Both the position numbers and the translations under genes were made by a program. From Planctomycetota bacterium (lineage in GTDB: Bacteria; Planctomycetota; UBA8742; UBA2392): a stretch of DNA of 41,175 bases. Each line of letters begins with the position of its first letter. Position 1 is the stretch's first letter. The notes under the pieces were generated by a model. The model saw only the letters and a list, made by a program, of their open reading frames with translations, searched no databases and had not been told where the DNA came from. Of the stretch, positions 19,002-24,914 are shown one piece after another. Where the stretch lies: the NCBI GenBank assembly GCA_020848275.1, contig JADLAK010000048.1, forward strand, positions 1 through 41,175, in the 5' to 3' direction.

Positions 19002-20024
19002 ATGCCCAAAATTGACATCCGCGGCCGCGACTTTTTGCGGCTCAGCGATTTCTCCGCCGAAGAAATCAACTCGATCATCGACCTTGCCTTCGAAATGAAG
19101 AAGGAACAAAGCAAGTTCAGCATCGCGGGCAAAACCATCGTGATGCTGTTCTTCAACTCAAGCCTGCGCACGCGCACCAGCTTCGAGATCGGCGCCTTCC
19201 AGCTTGGCGCGCACCCGGTCGTGCTCAACATCGGCCAGGATTCCTGGGACCTCGAATGGCTGGAGGGCGCCGTGATGGACGGCGACAAGCCCGAACACAT
19301 CAAGGACGCCGCTCGCGTGCTTTCGCGCTACGCTGACATCATCGCCGTGCGCAGCTTCCCCAAGATGGGCAACTACGACGACGACCGCCGCGACCCGATC
19401 CTCAGCGCGTTCTCCGAGTACACCAACGTCCCGCTGATCAACCTTGAAAGCGCCGTCGAGCACCCGTGCCAGGGCCTGGCCGACCTGATGACGCTGCGCG
19501 AGGTCTTCAACGGCGTCACCAAGAAGAAGAAAGTGGTGCTGAGCTGGGCGCCGCATATCAAACCGCTGCCGCTGGCGGTGCCGCACAGCGCACTGATGGC
19601 GATGGCGATGGGCGGCTGCAACGTCGTCGTGGCGCATCCCGAGAAATTCGACCTCGAACCCGAGATTGTCGAGCAGGCCCGGAAGGTCGCCAAGGCCGCG
19701 GGCGGCAAAGTCGAAGTCACGCACGACCAGGCCGCGGCGCTCGACGGCGCCGAAGTCGTCTATGGCAAAAGCTGGCTTTCGCGCGCGTTTTACGGCAAGC
19801 CCAAAGACGAACTCGCCTACCGCAAGACGCTGCCGAGCTGGACCATCACCGAGAAGAAAATGGAGCGAACCTCGCGCGCGAAGTTCATGCATTGTCTTCC
19901 CGTGCGCCGCAACGTCGTGGTGGATGACGCGGTGCTTGACGGCGAGGATTGCGTGGTCTACCAGCAGGCCGAAAACCGCCTGCATGCGCAGAAAGCCCTG
20001 ATGGTGAAATTGCTTGGCGAATAA
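19002..20024 (+). CDS. argF': N-acyl-ornithine transcarbamylase (ArgF' type), predicted N-succinylornithine-specific
   Basis: A 340-residue transcarbamylase of the acetyl/succinylornithine branch of arginine synthesis. The carbamoyl-phosphate loop is SLRTRTSFE (about 54-62). HPCQGLAD follows near 158-165, and the HCLPVRRNVVVDDAV signature near 295 contains the LPxRRN loop special to acylornithine enzymes. AENRLHAQKALM near the end also matches Xanthomonas ArgF'. At the position of Glu92 of Xanthomonas N-acetylornithine transcarbamylase this protein has Pro (P97 in MDGDKPEHI). A proline there is characteristic of the Bacteroides N-succinylornithine enzyme, so the acyl group is predicted to be succinyl. 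The alignment was made from memory. The gene's 3' end is duplicated about 940 bases downstream, beyond a DUF3800 gene. Confidence 0.9.
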   Translation: MPKIDIRGRDFLRLSDFSAEEINSIIDLAFEMKKEQSKFSIAGKTIVMLFFNSSLRTRTSFEIGAFQLGAHPVVLNIGQDSWDLEWLEGAVMDGDKPEHIKDAARVLSRYADIIAVRSFPKMGNYDDDRRDPILSAFSEYTNVPLINLESAVEHPCQGLADLMTLREVFNGVTKKKKVVLSWAPHIKPLPLAVPHSALMAMAMGGCNVVVAHPEKFDLEPEIVEQARKVAKAAGGKVEVTHDQAAALDGAEVVYGKSWLSRAFYGKPKDELAYRKTLPSWTITEKKMERTSRAKFMHCLPVRRNVVVDDAVLDGEDCVVYQQAENRLHAQKALMVKLLGE

Positions 20025-20967: not shown

Positions 20968-21033
20968 ATTATTTTCCGCGTTTGCCGGGCTCGGCCGTAT
21001 TACTACTATCGGTGGTGTAAATACGGAGGCCCT

Positions 21034-22173
21034 ATGAAAACCTTGTTCCTGATGGCGGCCCTGGCGCTGGGATCTGCGCCTTTGGCGGCGGCGGATCCAA
21101 CTCCGTCCCGCGGGCCCAACACGGCTAAACCCGCACCCAAGGACCCGGTCGAAAAGACCGCGGTTGCTTGGGAAATGACTGAAAAGTCCGCGCTTGCGCG
21201 CGCCGCGGCAGAAAAGAAATCGGTCTTTGTCTTCGTCTACATCGGCGGCGGCTGATGAGGCACCACACCGCGGCCGGAGGCCGCGCTTTGGGAAGACAAG
21301 CGGGTTGGAAAGTTCGTCGAAGACAACTACGTGCCGTTCTGGATTTCCTTTAAGACCGACAAAGAGGCCGCCAAGAAGTACGGGATTCTCCGCGGCCCGG
21401 CATTTGTCGTAACCGATGCCGAGGCAAAAGTTCAGCTCACCTATCGCGGCATGCCTTTCACCAAGGCCGACGCTGCCCTGGCGTGGCTTGGCGAATTGCC
21501 GGCGAAGATCAAGGCCGTCGGCGAGGCCGAGGCGAGGTTCAAGGACAAGGCGGACGACAACGAAGCGCGCCTGGCGATGGCCAAGGCTTACGGCGATGTC
21601 GGTCGCATCGACGAAGCCCTTGAGCTTTACGCCAAGGCAATCGAGAGCCTGCCCAAGGATGACAAGCGCATTGTCGACGCGCAGTGCCACCGCGGCTCGC
21701 TCGCAACCCAGAAGAACGATCTTCAACTTGCCGCGAAGTTCTACGGCGAGGTGTTTCCGCGCCTGGTTGAGGCCAAGGACGAGCGCGGCGTGGAAGCGGG
21801 AATGACGCTGGCGATGACCCAGCGCCGTGATCCCGCCGAGGCGCGCAAGACCTTCCTGAAAGTCGCCGAGACTTTTCCCAAGCACGAACGCGTGTGGGAA
21901 GCGCGAGTCATGGGCGCGATGTGCCTGCTGAGCGGCAAGAGCCCCGACTTCGAAACGGCAACGGCTGAAATCAAGCAGGTCGTCGATACCGGCCCCGCCG
22001 ACAACCAGTGGGTCAAGAACGGCGCCACGTACCTCAAAGCAATTGAGGCGCGCGCAAAGAAAATGGCCGAGAAGCGTGAGCCGCAGGCAGAAGAGAAACC
22101 CGCCGCGCCCACGCCGAAGTCCGACCCGCCTCCCAAGGAAGCACCGGAAAAACCCAAAGAGGAAGAATTCTAG
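21034..22173 (+). CDS. Exported thioredoxin-fold/TPR selenoprotein with tandem Sec-Sec (paralogue 1)
   Basis: The ORF is read through two consecutive in-frame TGA codons (21253-21258) to a TAG at 22171-22173, giving 379 residues with U74-U75. ACGGAGG lies upstream of the ATG, which opens a Sec signal peptide (about 1-21). The thioredoxin-like part is KKSVFVFVYIGGG-U-U-GTT, then PEAALWED, YVPFWISF and a RGPAF turn whose P122 fits the cis-proline. Residues about 165-355 are TPR-like helices, followed by a Pro/Lys/Glu-rich tail. The second U aligns with the single U of the neighbouring U-V-P-C protein, and the usual resolving Cys is Thr. A hairpin at 21269-21285 fits a SECIS. The downstream frame is open for 915 bases and homologous to both neighbours, so it is translated. 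A strong terminator follows. Its role is probably periplasmic redox or peroxide chemistry, which is inferred. Confidence 0.85.
21269..21285 (+). promoter_or_regulatory. Predicted bacterial SECIS hairpin of selenoprotein 1
   Basis: Ten bases after the second TGA, CGCGGCC (21269-21275) pairs perfectly with GGCCGCG (21279-21285) around a GGA loop. The first loop G comes 17 bases after the UGA, a spacing that fits known bacterial SECIS elements such as fdhF. The stem is translated as part of the protein. The same spacing, loop and pairing recur at the other two genes, with compensating base changes. Confidence 0.8.
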
Positions 22174-22186
22174 GGATAGCTCCAAG

Positions 22187-22219
22187 AACCGGCCCGACCT
22201 CGTCGGGCCGGTTTCTTTT
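22187..22219 (+). terminator. Rho-independent terminator of selenoprotein 1
   Basis: AACCGGCCCGAC (22187-22198) pairs perfectly with GTCGGGCCGGTT (22202-22213) around a CTC loop, followed by TCTTTTC. It ends the first selenoprotein transcript, so the next gene must have its own promoter in the short gap before 22261. Confidence 0.85.
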
Positions 22220-22260
22220 CGCTACGATAGCTGCCCACTTTCCGGGGCCGGAGGCTTTCC

Positions 22261-23331
22261 ATGCGCTATGTGATGCCTGTGCTGTTGCTTCTGATCGCCG
22301 GTTGCGCTTCGCAGCCCGAAAACAGGCCGACGCCGCAGCCGCAACTCGAACCCGGGCCCGTGCAACCGGAACCGAAACCGGAGCCCAAACCGGAGCCCAA
22401 ACCCGAAGATTTCCCCAAGGGCATGGCCTGGCGTCACGACTGGGACACGGCGCGCAAGGAAGCCGTGGACAGCAAGCGCCGTTTGTTCATCGAATTTACC
22501 GGCGAATTCTGAGTGCCCTGCCGGCGGCTGGACGCCGCCGTGTGGCCCGACAGCAAACTCGCGGCGCGCATTGAAGGCGAGTACGTGCCGATCAAATTGA
22601 TGGACGAAACGGCCATGGACATCGCCAAGGCCTACGACGTCCAGGTGGTTCCGACGTTTGTGATCGCGAAAACCGATGGAGAGTTGTTGCTCAAGCAAGT
22701 GGGCCCGCCGTTCTCGAAGCCGACCGAGGCCGTAATCTGGTTCGACGCCATCGCGCCGCGCCTGAAAACGGCTGACGAAGCCGAAGCCGCAGCGAAAGCC
22801 CGACCCGGCGAATTCGCCGCGCAACTGGCGTTATTCCGCGCTTGCAATGATCTCGGCCGTACTGCGCGCGCCGAGGAAGCCATGCTGGCCGCTGAAAAAC
22901 TTGCCGGCGACAGTGAAGACAACAAGCTTGAAATCGACGTAGCGCGCCTGACCGTGCTGGCCTCGAAGCAAAAGATGGGCGAGGCCGCGCCGGTGGCCGA
23001 CCGGGTCGCCGCGGCGTTGCTGAAAAAGAAAGACAAGCGCCTGGTTGAGCTGGGGCTGCTGATCTGCGACGTGTACTCGTTCATCGACCGCAAGGACGAG
23101 CCGCGCACCTTCATCAAACAAGTCAACGAACTGTTCCCGGATAACCCCAACCGCATCCAGTACAACGTGCGCGCCGCGTTTGCGCTGATGCAGGGCGGCG
23201 ACAAGCAGGGCGCGCTCAAGGAATTCGAGGCCATCATCGCGGCGGGCCCGGCCGATGACATCTGGGTCAACTACGCCACAGAAGCCCGCGACCACGTCAA
23301 GAAGAGCCTCGAGTCGCCCGGGGGCGGGTAG
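22261..23331 (+). CDS. Thioredoxin-fold/TPR selenolipoprotein with U-V-P-C redox site (paralogue 2)
   Basis: Read through one in-frame TGA at 22510-22512, the ORF is 356 residues with U84. GGAGG lies upstream of the ATG. The N-terminus is a lipoprotein signal, LLLLIAGC, with the lipid Cys at residue 15. A Pro/Glu/Lys-rich linker (about 18-50) follows. The redox site is FIEFTGEF-U-V-P-C (U84, C87), then RRLDAAVWPD and YVPIKL, and VVPTF whose P131 fits the thioredoxin cis-proline. About 165-345 are TPR-like helices homologous to both neighbours. UxxC replaces the CxxC of cysteine homologues, the classic sign of a true selenoprotein. Ordinary gene callers would report an 83-residue stub and a GTG-started 272-residue protein. 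It is the least unusual and most convincing of the three. Confidence 0.9.
22522..22540 (+). promoter_or_regulatory. Predicted bacterial SECIS hairpin of selenoprotein 2
   Basis: CGGCGGC (22522-22528) pairs perfectly with GCCGCCG (22534-22540) around TGGAC. The loop GGA starts 17 bases after the UGA, exactly as in the two sister genes, although the stem sequence and loop size differ. The conserved distance and loop, with a different stem, argue for an RNA signal and not just shared coding sequence. Confidence 0.8.
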
Positions 23332-23861
23332 CCCGACGGTCGCCATCACTGACGCCGCCCGCTTCGAACTGGCGATAGTCAATTGCTTCAGCATCGCGCA
23401 TGCGAAGAGCAACCAATGCGTCAATCCGGAGCTTGCCAGGCGTTACGGCTGGCCATGCACGGCCAGTGTATACGCCCCGGCGCCACGAAGCTTTTGTGGC
23501 GCAAGGAAATGAGCCACGACGACACCCAGGGCCGCAAAGAACATAAAAAGGCGGACATCGCCGAAACGCTGCGAAAACGCCGCGCTTGCGCGCGTGAAAG
23601 AAGCTGCGGCTGTTGGCAAAAGCGGCGAAATCGACAAGGCGAGGCAAATGCTTCAGGTCATAATGAGGGACAAGAAAGCCGTTTCGGCGCTGGAGGCTGC
23701 CAAGGAAGCGCTCAAGGACCTCGAAAGTCCACCTAAGTAACAGCGATGATTAGGGTTGCGGTCGGCCGGCCCACTGGCCGCGTGCGTAATGTTTCCAGAA
23801 CTATGGCGACGGGCTTTTCGTCAAACGTAGTATGAGCAGCCGTCATTCGAAAGGAGCTGTT
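23332..23861. other. 530-base gap between selenoproteins 2 and 3
   Basis: No intact gene is seen. A 7-bp hairpin (GCGCCAC at 23480-23486 with GTGGCGC at 23496-23502) has no T run and is a poor terminator. The second half contains a degenerate coding stretch described separately. The last 100 bases hold the ribosome site AAAGGAG of the third selenoprotein and presumably its promoter. Confidence 0.5.
23509..23740 (+). pseudogene. Possible degenerate small gene or family remnant
   Basis: Two frames each look protein-like over part of this stretch. One starts MSHDDTQGRKEHKKADIAET at 23509. Another ends at TAA 23738-23740 after KSGEIDKARQMLQV and AVSALEAAKEALKDLES, a charged helical tail like the TPR ends of the adjacent selenoproteins. 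Joining them needs a frameshift. It could be the eroded end of a fourth paralogue, or chance. The evidence is weak. Confidence 0.3.
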
Positions 23862-24914
23862 ATGAAACTAAGTTTCTTCGCCGCTGCGGTGCTTTGCGCC
23901 GCCCTGGCGCCCGCGCTTTGCGCGGAGGAGGCCCGCGAGGTGCGCAGAGCCGCATCGCCGCCGGCTCCGAAGGCCGAGGAATCGGCCAAGAAGGTTGCAT
24001 GGGAGAAAGAAATCGACAAAGCGGTAGCCCGTGCCAACAAGGAAGACAAGCGTATCCTTGCGTTGTTCTTCATGGCCGGTGGTGGCTGATGAGGCCCGCC
24101 CGCGCAGCCGGAGGCTGCGCTCGATGCTGATGCCCGCGTTGTTGACGCAATCAACACCGGATATGTGCCGCTGCTGATCGATATCGGCGAACATGCCGAC
24201 CTGGCCAAGGAAACGGCCATCACCTACAACACGCTCTCGCTACTCAACACCGACAAGGTCTTGATGGCGGCCGCGCGTAACCTCGACCTCGGCGATGCTG
24301 AGGGCGTACTGAAGTGGTTCAAGGCCGCCCCGGACCAGATCAAGGCCGTGGCGACCGCCGAAGCCGCGGTCAAGGCCAAGGCCGACACCGAAACGCGGCT
24401 GGCGTTGGCCAAGACCTATGACGATGCCGGCCGCCTGTCGGAGTCGATGTCCACCTACGAACAGGTCGTTAAGGGCATGGCCAAGGACGACAAGCGCCTG
24501 TTCGACATTGAGTTGCGCCGCGCGGAAATCGCCGAGCAAACATGGGATTGGGAAAAATCGCAGGCTTTGTACGCCGAGCTTTTCCCGAAGCTGCTGGAGG
24601 CCAAGGATGAACGCGCGGTTCGCGCAAGCTGGGCGATCGTCAACAAACTCAGCGGCGAAAACAAGTGGAAGGAAGCTCACGACCTGATCCTCAAGGTTGC
24701 GGCGGAGTTCCCCAAGAACGACGAAGCGCAACAGGGCAAGATCAGCGCCGCGTGGTACCTCGCGCAGTCCGGTGACAAAGCCGGCGCAAAGGCGGAACTG
24801 AAGGCCATCATCTCCGCCGGCAAGGAAGACGACATGCTGGTGATCGGCGCCAAATCGATGCTGGAAATGATCGAGGGCGAAGAAGGCGATAAGAAGGAAG
24901 AAAAGAACGGGTAG
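23862..24914 (+). CDS. Exported thioredoxin-fold/TPR selenoprotein with tandem Sec-Sec (paralogue 3)
   Basis: Read through two consecutive TGA codons (24087-24092), the ORF is 350 residues with U76-U77. The ATG at 23862 is chosen because AAAGGAG lies seven bases upstream and a Sec signal peptide (about 1-21) follows; an upstream ATG at 23832 lacks these. The redox region is KRILALFFMAGGG-U-U-GPP, then PEAAL and YVPLLID, matching paralogue 1. The region where a cis-proline should sit (YNTLSLLNTD) has none, so the fold is more diverged. TPR-like helices fill about 160-335, with KDDKRLFDIELRRAEIAEQ and LLEAKDERAVR close to paralogue 1. A SECIS-like hairpin follows the UGA pair and a strong terminator ends the gene. 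Its retention of both UGA codons despite divergence suggests that the Sec pair itself is under selection. Confidence 0.82.
24102..24120 (+). promoter_or_regulatory. Predicted bacterial SECIS hairpin of selenoprotein 3
   Basis: GCGCAGCC (24102-24109) pairs perfectly with GGCTGCGC (24113-24120) around GGA. The loop begins 17 bases after the second UGA. Against the hairpin of paralogue 1, one G-C pair of the stem has become A-U, with both sides changed together. That covariation supports selection for the structure. Confidence 0.8.

Follow-up and report, generated by a model that had tools for sequence, protein, structure and literature searches.

Tandem UGA codons in thioredoxin-like genes of a planctomycete: predicted selenoproteins with a probable pair of adjacent selenocysteines

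The window analysed here is a contig of 41,175 nucleotides (nt) (JADLAK010000048.1, listed as C48) from the draft genome of a Planctomycetota bacterium (GCA_020848275.1; 4.41 Mb, 111 contigs, 88% complete). It carries three neighbouring genes, A, B and C, that are interrupted by in-frame UGA codons: two in a row in A and C, and one in B (Table 1). We think it probable that these codons are read as selenocysteine (Sec) with one hairpin serving each site, and that A and C likely contain a vicinal Sec-Sec pair. The parts of this reading, which was derived from sequence, differ in strength. Sec is predicted with near certainty at the catalytic UGA and with high confidence at both UGAs of a pair; a vicinal diselenide redox centre in A and C is slightly favoured. 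Most likely, the products of A and C would be exported oxidoreductases that act on thiols and disulfides and carry two vicinal Sec residues.

The TGAs are the sole internal stops of the three genes, whose frames are otherwise open from the start codon to a TAG. The start of gene C was corrected, most likely to position 23862, where AGGAG precedes the ATG. B and C share 29% and 34% identity with A, and a search of the genome with A matched the other two paralogs at E values of 2.4e-47 and 2.7e-24. As the initial annotation had stated, the three homologous genes are broken at one alignment position and the outer two carry tandem codons: one invariant column takes in the single TGA of B together with the second TGA of A and of C. 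In A, in C and in the ortholog of A from another genome of the same family (G012, locus L070), the tandem site has the context GGGUUG, U denoting Sec here and below. Sequencing or assembly error might be suspected in a draft of 111 contigs, but two paralogs share the TGA pair, and so does a separate assembly (JADLFN010000018.1); we regard this explanation as scarcely credible.

The machinery for Sec insertion is encoded in the same genome. The initial annotation had made its case depend on selA, selB, selC and selD, and all four are present: selA (468 bits), selB (306 bits), selD (386 bits; its AGUGCK motif includes an in-frame TGA of its own) and selC, a tRNA-Sec match of 70.8 bits ∼0.8 kb behind selA. 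Among the relatives, selA was found in 16 of 16, and a tRNA-Sec match of 69–75 bits lies within ∼1 kb of it in 15; in G016 the best match scores 47.5 bits, and a tRNA-Sec is not established there. Since the tRNA-Sec search was loose (5 of 14 control genomes also gave matches above cut-off, and the own genome a second one of 48.2 bits), only matches near selA were counted. UGA is also used as a stop, as 4 of 17 other long frames of the window end in TGA; these frames were chosen as open under translation table 11 and lack internal TGA by construction. Reassignment of UGA to Trp was considered and rejected on account of these four frames and of the tRNA-Sec in the genome.

The place of the UGAs in the active site emerged from a family alignment of 20 rows, from which two loci with uncertain frame ends (L072 and L074) and weaker phylum-level matches were left out. 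The second U of the pair occupies the invariant, gap-free catalytic column. The column of the first is mostly Trp (14 of 20 rows), with Phe in B, and Thr and Gly in the rows with a UGPU site. At the resolving +3 position, the tandem members have T (A and L070, UUGTT) or P (C, UUGPP). Apart from these UU sites in A, C and L070, the family shows UVPC in B, UGPC in L071, L072, L075, L077–L081, L083, L085 and L088, UGPU in L086 and L087 of G016, and CGPC in L073, L074, L076, L082 and L084. The claim that UxxC replaces CxxC in these proteins holds for B and fails for A and C. At the codon level, UGPC relatives have TGG TGA where the UU members have TGA TGA, and TGG to TGA is a single base change.

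The UU site is kept in all three genes of its branch, which the tree groups at 90/90, and the site label changes once in 200 of 200 bootstrap trees. Long branches of uncertain placement lead to B and to a fourth paralog from the own genome (L109; G000:C88, 2561–3622), whose active-site loop is without Sec or Cys. A is 44% identical to its G012 ortholog; that TGA rather than TGG has been held at the first position at this divergence, and at the 34% identity between A and C, argues that this position is not Trp.

Three protein database searches, which score only candidates sharing most words, extended the family. The initial annotation had proposed to look for CC, UC or UU at the site: W-C-x-x-C was present in 40 of the 42 full-length homologs placed on the family alignment (P0006–P0047), the other two being unaligned at the site, CC was present in none of the 42, and one full UU ortholog was found, that of G012. 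No homolog with Cys at the first UGA of the pair was found among these relatives, which have Trp. The CGPC members L073, L074, L076, L082 and L084 have uninterrupted frames across the site, as do P0006–P0011, which speaks against the UGAs being ordinary stop codons that separate two genes, the outcome that the initial annotation had named as fatal to its reading. Of five A-type relatives (P0002, P0048, P0050, P0051 and P0052) and two C-type relatives (P0053 and P0054; types assigned by eye), only the downstream half was found, with a start that lies past the site and differs in position from relative to relative; we predict TGA TGA ahead of these seven half genes. Scanning database contigs with the UU alignment returned one locus, the G012 ortholog, records of the own genome perhaps being excluded there. 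A DNA pattern written from the three UU sites matched these three exactly in 199 genomes, by construction, and gave five other matches in five genomes, with two mismatches each and chance-like by eye; a reversed control gave one. Gene A as a query matches 48 of the 199 genomes, in many cases weakly, and distant matches in the phylum carry other Sec sites, e.g. UGYC, UGSC and UEAC.

These data also bear on whether A, B and C have decayed into pseudogenes or are split, with the downstream half made from a start of its own. Gene callers do start the downstream half past the UGA (P0001, P0049 and the seven relatives), and what may be a remnant is found between B and C. Yet the only stops are TGAs, in one alignment column of three paralogs and an ortholog, the start past the UGA varies among relatives, and the downstream half is conserved, at 65% with P0002. 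We hold decay or splitting to be very improbable.

Each site is followed by a SECIS-like (selenocysteine insertion sequence) hairpin (Table 1), with the same 17-nt spacer between the (second) UGA and GGA in A, B and C. Of the earlier description, the perfect stems of 7–8 bp and the position of GGA 17 nt behind the UGA were borne out; a GGA triloop was not for B, which has a 5-nt loop. As the genome is GC-rich and the region is coding, the hairpins were tested against synonymous-codon shuffles. In the exact register, an equally long stem arose in 171 (A), 108 (B) and 173 (C) of 20,000 shuffles (Fisher-combined p 5e-5), and among 5,354 ordinary codons in nine other window frames a single one had a GG loop with a stem of at least 7 bp at the same register. 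Published criteria for bacterial SECIS elements ask for a loop of 3–9 nt with G in the first two positions, a stem of 4–16 bp, a spacing of 16–37 nt and a minimum free energy of at most −7.5 (PMC13188914). The hairpins of A, B and C fall within these limits; 8 of 17 family sites fall outside them in a perfect-stem scan.

The initial annotation had noted that the stem sequences differ yet stay paired, and the wider family agrees. In A, B, C, L070, L083, L085 and L088, which share the register, 47 of 49 cells are paired, with exchanges at pairs 14–24 (GC/AT), 17–21 (CG/TA) and 12–26 (GC/AT). The five Cys members form at most 1–3 bp at this register, and sliding the stems by one or two columns leaves 11–19 of 49 cells paired. 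A covariance model built from four members outside the window, the G012 ortholog of A included, ranked A (39.1 bits), B (33.9) and C (26.5) as its top three matches in the window; the fourth, at 13.9 bits, is the opposite strand of A's palindrome. Because a sequence-only model found the same three sites with 18.9 (A), 22.6 (B) and 16.2 (C) bits, sequence and pairing both contribute. Eight other UGPC sites (19.0–28.8 bits) were also matched by the covariance model, as was a single Cys site, that of L074 (18.1 bits); the UGPU sites were not found. No Rfam family scored above its gathering score in the whole window, and a lax Rfam search of 21200–24200 gave six matches below cut-off, none of them a SECIS.

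The two UGPU paralogs of G016 (L086, 7899–9104; L087, 6832–8040) have one shared hairpin in range of both of their UGAs. It is formed by GCGTCT-GGTC-AGACGC, with 6 bp; the spacing is 31 nt to the first UGA and 22 nt to the second. This pair is a second double-Sec design in the family.

A different reading of the tandem sites takes only the second UGA as Sec and lets a near-cognate Trp-tRNA read the first, so that A would contain W-U-G-T-T and C W-U-G-P-P, with one Sec each. The prevalence of Trp in the first column, the single step from TGG to TGA and the one-Sec UxxT selenoproteins listed in PMC13188914 would suit such a reading, but all three genes have retained TGA, even though a change to TGG would spare them termination. 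Furthermore, the hairpin is 20 nt from the first UGA, inside the 16–37-nt range, and the resolving Cys is missing exactly where the extra UGA appears. Readthrough by Trp-tRNA is, in our judgement, improbable, and Sec at both codons is preferred.

The initial annotation had described a thioredoxin fold followed by helices resembling tetratricopeptide repeats (TPR), and our analysis is broadly in line with this. With Thioredoxin_7 (Pfam, curated cut-off 27.0 bits), B scores 35.2 bits and A, below the cut-off, 19.2; C is not listed. A structural model of A (mean predicted local distance difference test (pLDDT) 86) has a thioredoxin-like part, with the strand and helix order of that fold as read by eye, and then TPR helices. 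Its best Foldseek match is YbbN (PDB 3QOU, E 1.5e-4), with a different packing (TM-score 0.19/0.25, root-mean-square deviation 20.4); the VIA-align rows are dominated by TPR domains and hold little information on the thioredoxin part. A PDB sequence search with B returned thioredoxin domains and domains like those of protein disulfide isomerase (PDI). Against the NCBIfam models Trx_VPGUxxT (NF041382 and NF041383; cut-offs 350 and 275 bits), the G012 ortholog scores 20.4 and C 20.6 bits. The thioredoxin cis-Pro, placed by eye, is absent in C and in the G012 ortholog and retained in A (GPAF). In the product of A the only Cys residues are Cys218 and Cys297; that of C has only Cys12 and Cys20, both inside the predicted signal peptide.

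Some of these features would also suit a Sec pair that binds a soft metal or metalloid (mercury, arsenic or copper) and forms no redox diselenide, in which case A and C would be exported metal-binding selenoproteins. The loss of cis-Pro in C and the G012 ortholog may open the site, C has no Cys beyond residue 20, and some Sec residues may bind metals (PMC13188914). Set against this are the plain WCGPC/WUGPC redox motif of the relatives, the Pro kept by A, and a Pfam scan of nine window frames (one without a match) in which no metal-resistance family was named. We consider metal binding unlikely and return to the vicinal diselenide.

Several observations weigh against the Sec-Sec reading or against its hairpins. 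A full-length UU gene is known from only 2 of 199 genomes, and two consecutive UGAs should lower the yield. The Cys in the TPR part (Cys297 of A) is kept by A and its orthologs and could be the true resolving residue; the active-site loop of the model is poor, with pLDDT below 50 at residues 76–79. When the position was left free, the hairpin signal was weak: 284 (A), 333 (B) and 63 (C) of 2,000 shuffles had a stem as long, and 109, 186 and 383 an energy as low. Hairpins as such are common enough in this GC-rich genome; an equally stable one lies in the allowed range behind 43, 43 and 36 of the 5,354 ordinary codons. Stems slid by three columns still pair in 31–33 of 49 cells, because the stems are repetitive. 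Of the family's 17 Sec sites, no more than 7 have the register hairpin: L079 and L081 have a different one (−10.4 kcal/mol), the UGPC sites of L071, L072, L075, L077, L078 and L080 have nothing better than −1.4 in the perfect-stem scan, and the 6-bp hairpin of L086 and L087, at −7.2 kcal/mol, is just short of the −7.5 limit. Plain sequence homology supplies part of the covariance-model score, and the model misses the UGA sites of the genome's selD and of its DsbD-like gene, described below.

In the mechanism that we propose, one hairpin would recruit SelB for both adjacent UGAs, 17 and 20 nt away. A, B and C would be exported, B as a lipoprotein, as signal peptides recognized by eye suggest. 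The two Sec residues of A and C would be linked as a vicinal diselenide and undergo redox cycles with disulfides or peroxides as substrates; the resolving residue would have shifted from +3 to −1, and an eight-membered Se-Se ring would take the place of the CxxC loop. A likely electron source is the single DsbD_TM protein found in a search of the genome (L124, G000:C36, frame end near 2580 of the locus). Its frame meets a TGA in the thioredoxin end and goes on past it as FTGINUKNC; from sequence, it is predicted to be a DsbD-like selenoprotein that gene callers would cut. Such a protein would provide a Sec-dependent path for electrons through the membrane; their likely acceptors would be A, B and C, with B possibly as an intermediate. 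The TPR part might hold client proteins in the manner of CnoX/YbbN, which is a guess by analogy. The likely origin is a W-Sec ancestor in which TGG became TGA within reach of an existing SECIS, the resolving Cys then becoming dispensable. We give an even chance to the wider proposal that A and C stand for a class of bacterial redox enzymes with a vicinal-diselenide active site, in which one SECIS serves two UGAs, the first Sec comes from a Trp codon and the resolving role has passed from position +3 to −1.

The neighbourhood of the cluster is partly shared with relatives. Seven of the 19 loci fetched from relatives (six UGPC, one CGPC) have a carbamoyltransferase homolog directly ahead of the family gene, so the cluster of the window lies where several relatives keep theirs. 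Between B and C, at 23340–23740, there is an open stretch whose tail (EAAKEALKDLESPPK) is TPR-like by eye, perhaps a remnant of a further copy. Elsewhere, a double-length relative in G016 (L113; G016:C133:1–2487, minus strand) has two thioredoxin-like parts with one UGA each and no Cys at +3 (WUGEV and GUGVK). In the relatives, L110, L111, L112 and L114, with frames of 405–506 residues and the site PF-G/A-C-T/V-U-N-N, in which Cys stands two residues ahead of the UGA, are perhaps another Sec thioredoxin-like family.

Table 1. Positions of the genes, UGA codons, hairpins and neighbouring features in the window.
Feature	Position	Strand	Remarks
Ornithine/aspartate carbamoyltransferase gene	19002..20024	+	DUF3800 gene between this gene and A
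GGAGG, ribosome-binding-like motif ahead of gene A	21025..21029	+	By eye
Gene A	21034..22173	+	Signal peptide (by eye), thioredoxin fold at residues ∼45–153, C-terminal TPR helices; UU at residues 74–75
First UGA of gene A	21253..21255	+	Predicted Sec74; Trp (TGG) column of UGPC/CGPC relatives
Second UGA of gene A	21256..21258	+	Predicted Sec75; invariant catalytic Sec/Cys column
SECIS-like hairpin of A	21269..21285	+	7 bp; GGA loop 21276–21278; spacing 17 nt (second UGA) and 20 nt (first UGA)
Gene B	22261..23331	+	Lipoprotein-type signal LIAGC (by eye), thioredoxin fold, TPR-like; UVPC, Sec at residue 84
UGA of gene B	22510..22512	+	Predicted Sec84
SECIS-like hairpin of B	22522..22540	+	7 bp; loop TGGAC
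Gene C	23862..24914	+	Signal peptide (by eye), thioredoxin fold, TPR-like; UU at residues 76–77 from the 23862 start
First UGA of gene C	24087..24089	+	Predicted Sec
Second UGA of gene C	24090..24092	+	Predicted Sec; catalytic column
SECIS-like hairpin of C	24102..24120	+	8 bp; GGA loop 24110–24112

If the Sec-Sec reading is true, insertion of consecutive Sec residues extends to bacteria, and the parts of SelB and of an in-frame SECIS in it can be tested in E. coli; it also means that a second Sec beside an existing one can arise from Trp rather than Cys. Two questions could then be put to the test: is a single bacterial SECIS enough for two neighbouring codons, and what function does a vicinal diselenide have that a CxxC disulfide lacks? 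For both, the family offers a natural series of UU, UGPU, UGPC and CGPC members and a member without a redox residue.

A diselenide is reportedly present in the redox motif of SelL, said to have been described by Shchedrina in 2007. SelL is an animal protein with a spaced UxxU, and is like A and C in having a diselenide as redox centre and unlike them in that spacing and in its animal origin. For consecutive Sec-Sec in bacteria, we found no precedent in our searches of the open-licence literature or in the 2026 inventory of 119 families and subfamilies, although papers elsewhere may hold one. The table of that inventory has no UU motif, the nearest being CU, UxxU and UxxT (PMC13188914); the passages covered of the deep-Sep work show no such motif (PMC12013277), and those of GOS nothing nearer than UxxU (PMC2398784). 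Tandem UGA codons have been proposed in a viral overlapping frame (PMC11510084). B (UVPC) and the UGPC relatives belong with the bacterial UxxC Sec thioredoxin-like proteins of the inventory, with which they share the thioredoxin fold and the N-terminal Sec of the motif (PMC13188914). CnoX/YbbN chaperedoxins likewise have a thioredoxin domain and then TPR; unlike A (UUGTT), C (UUGPP) and B (UVPC), they have SXXC or CXXC and are cytoplasmic partners of GroEL/ES (PMC8129009). The signal peptides of A–C, recognized by eye, argue against a cytoplasmic hand-over of clients to GroEL/ES. The initial annotation had called Sec-Sec a motif unfamiliar from characterized bacterial families, which agrees with our search for bacteria; consecutive Sec itself, in contrast, has been reported in single-celled eukaryotic algae, where PDI_e, with GUGUU, was reported as the first case (PMC7539508). 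PDI_e resembles A and C in being thioredoxin-like and in having two consecutive Sec from consecutive TGA codons, and differs in being eukaryotic and in having three Sec in GUGUU; its authors report that they found no bacterial homolog (PMC7539508). A and C are bacterial, with GGGUUG, an in-frame hairpin, the first predicted Sec in a Trp column and the resolving Cys lost.

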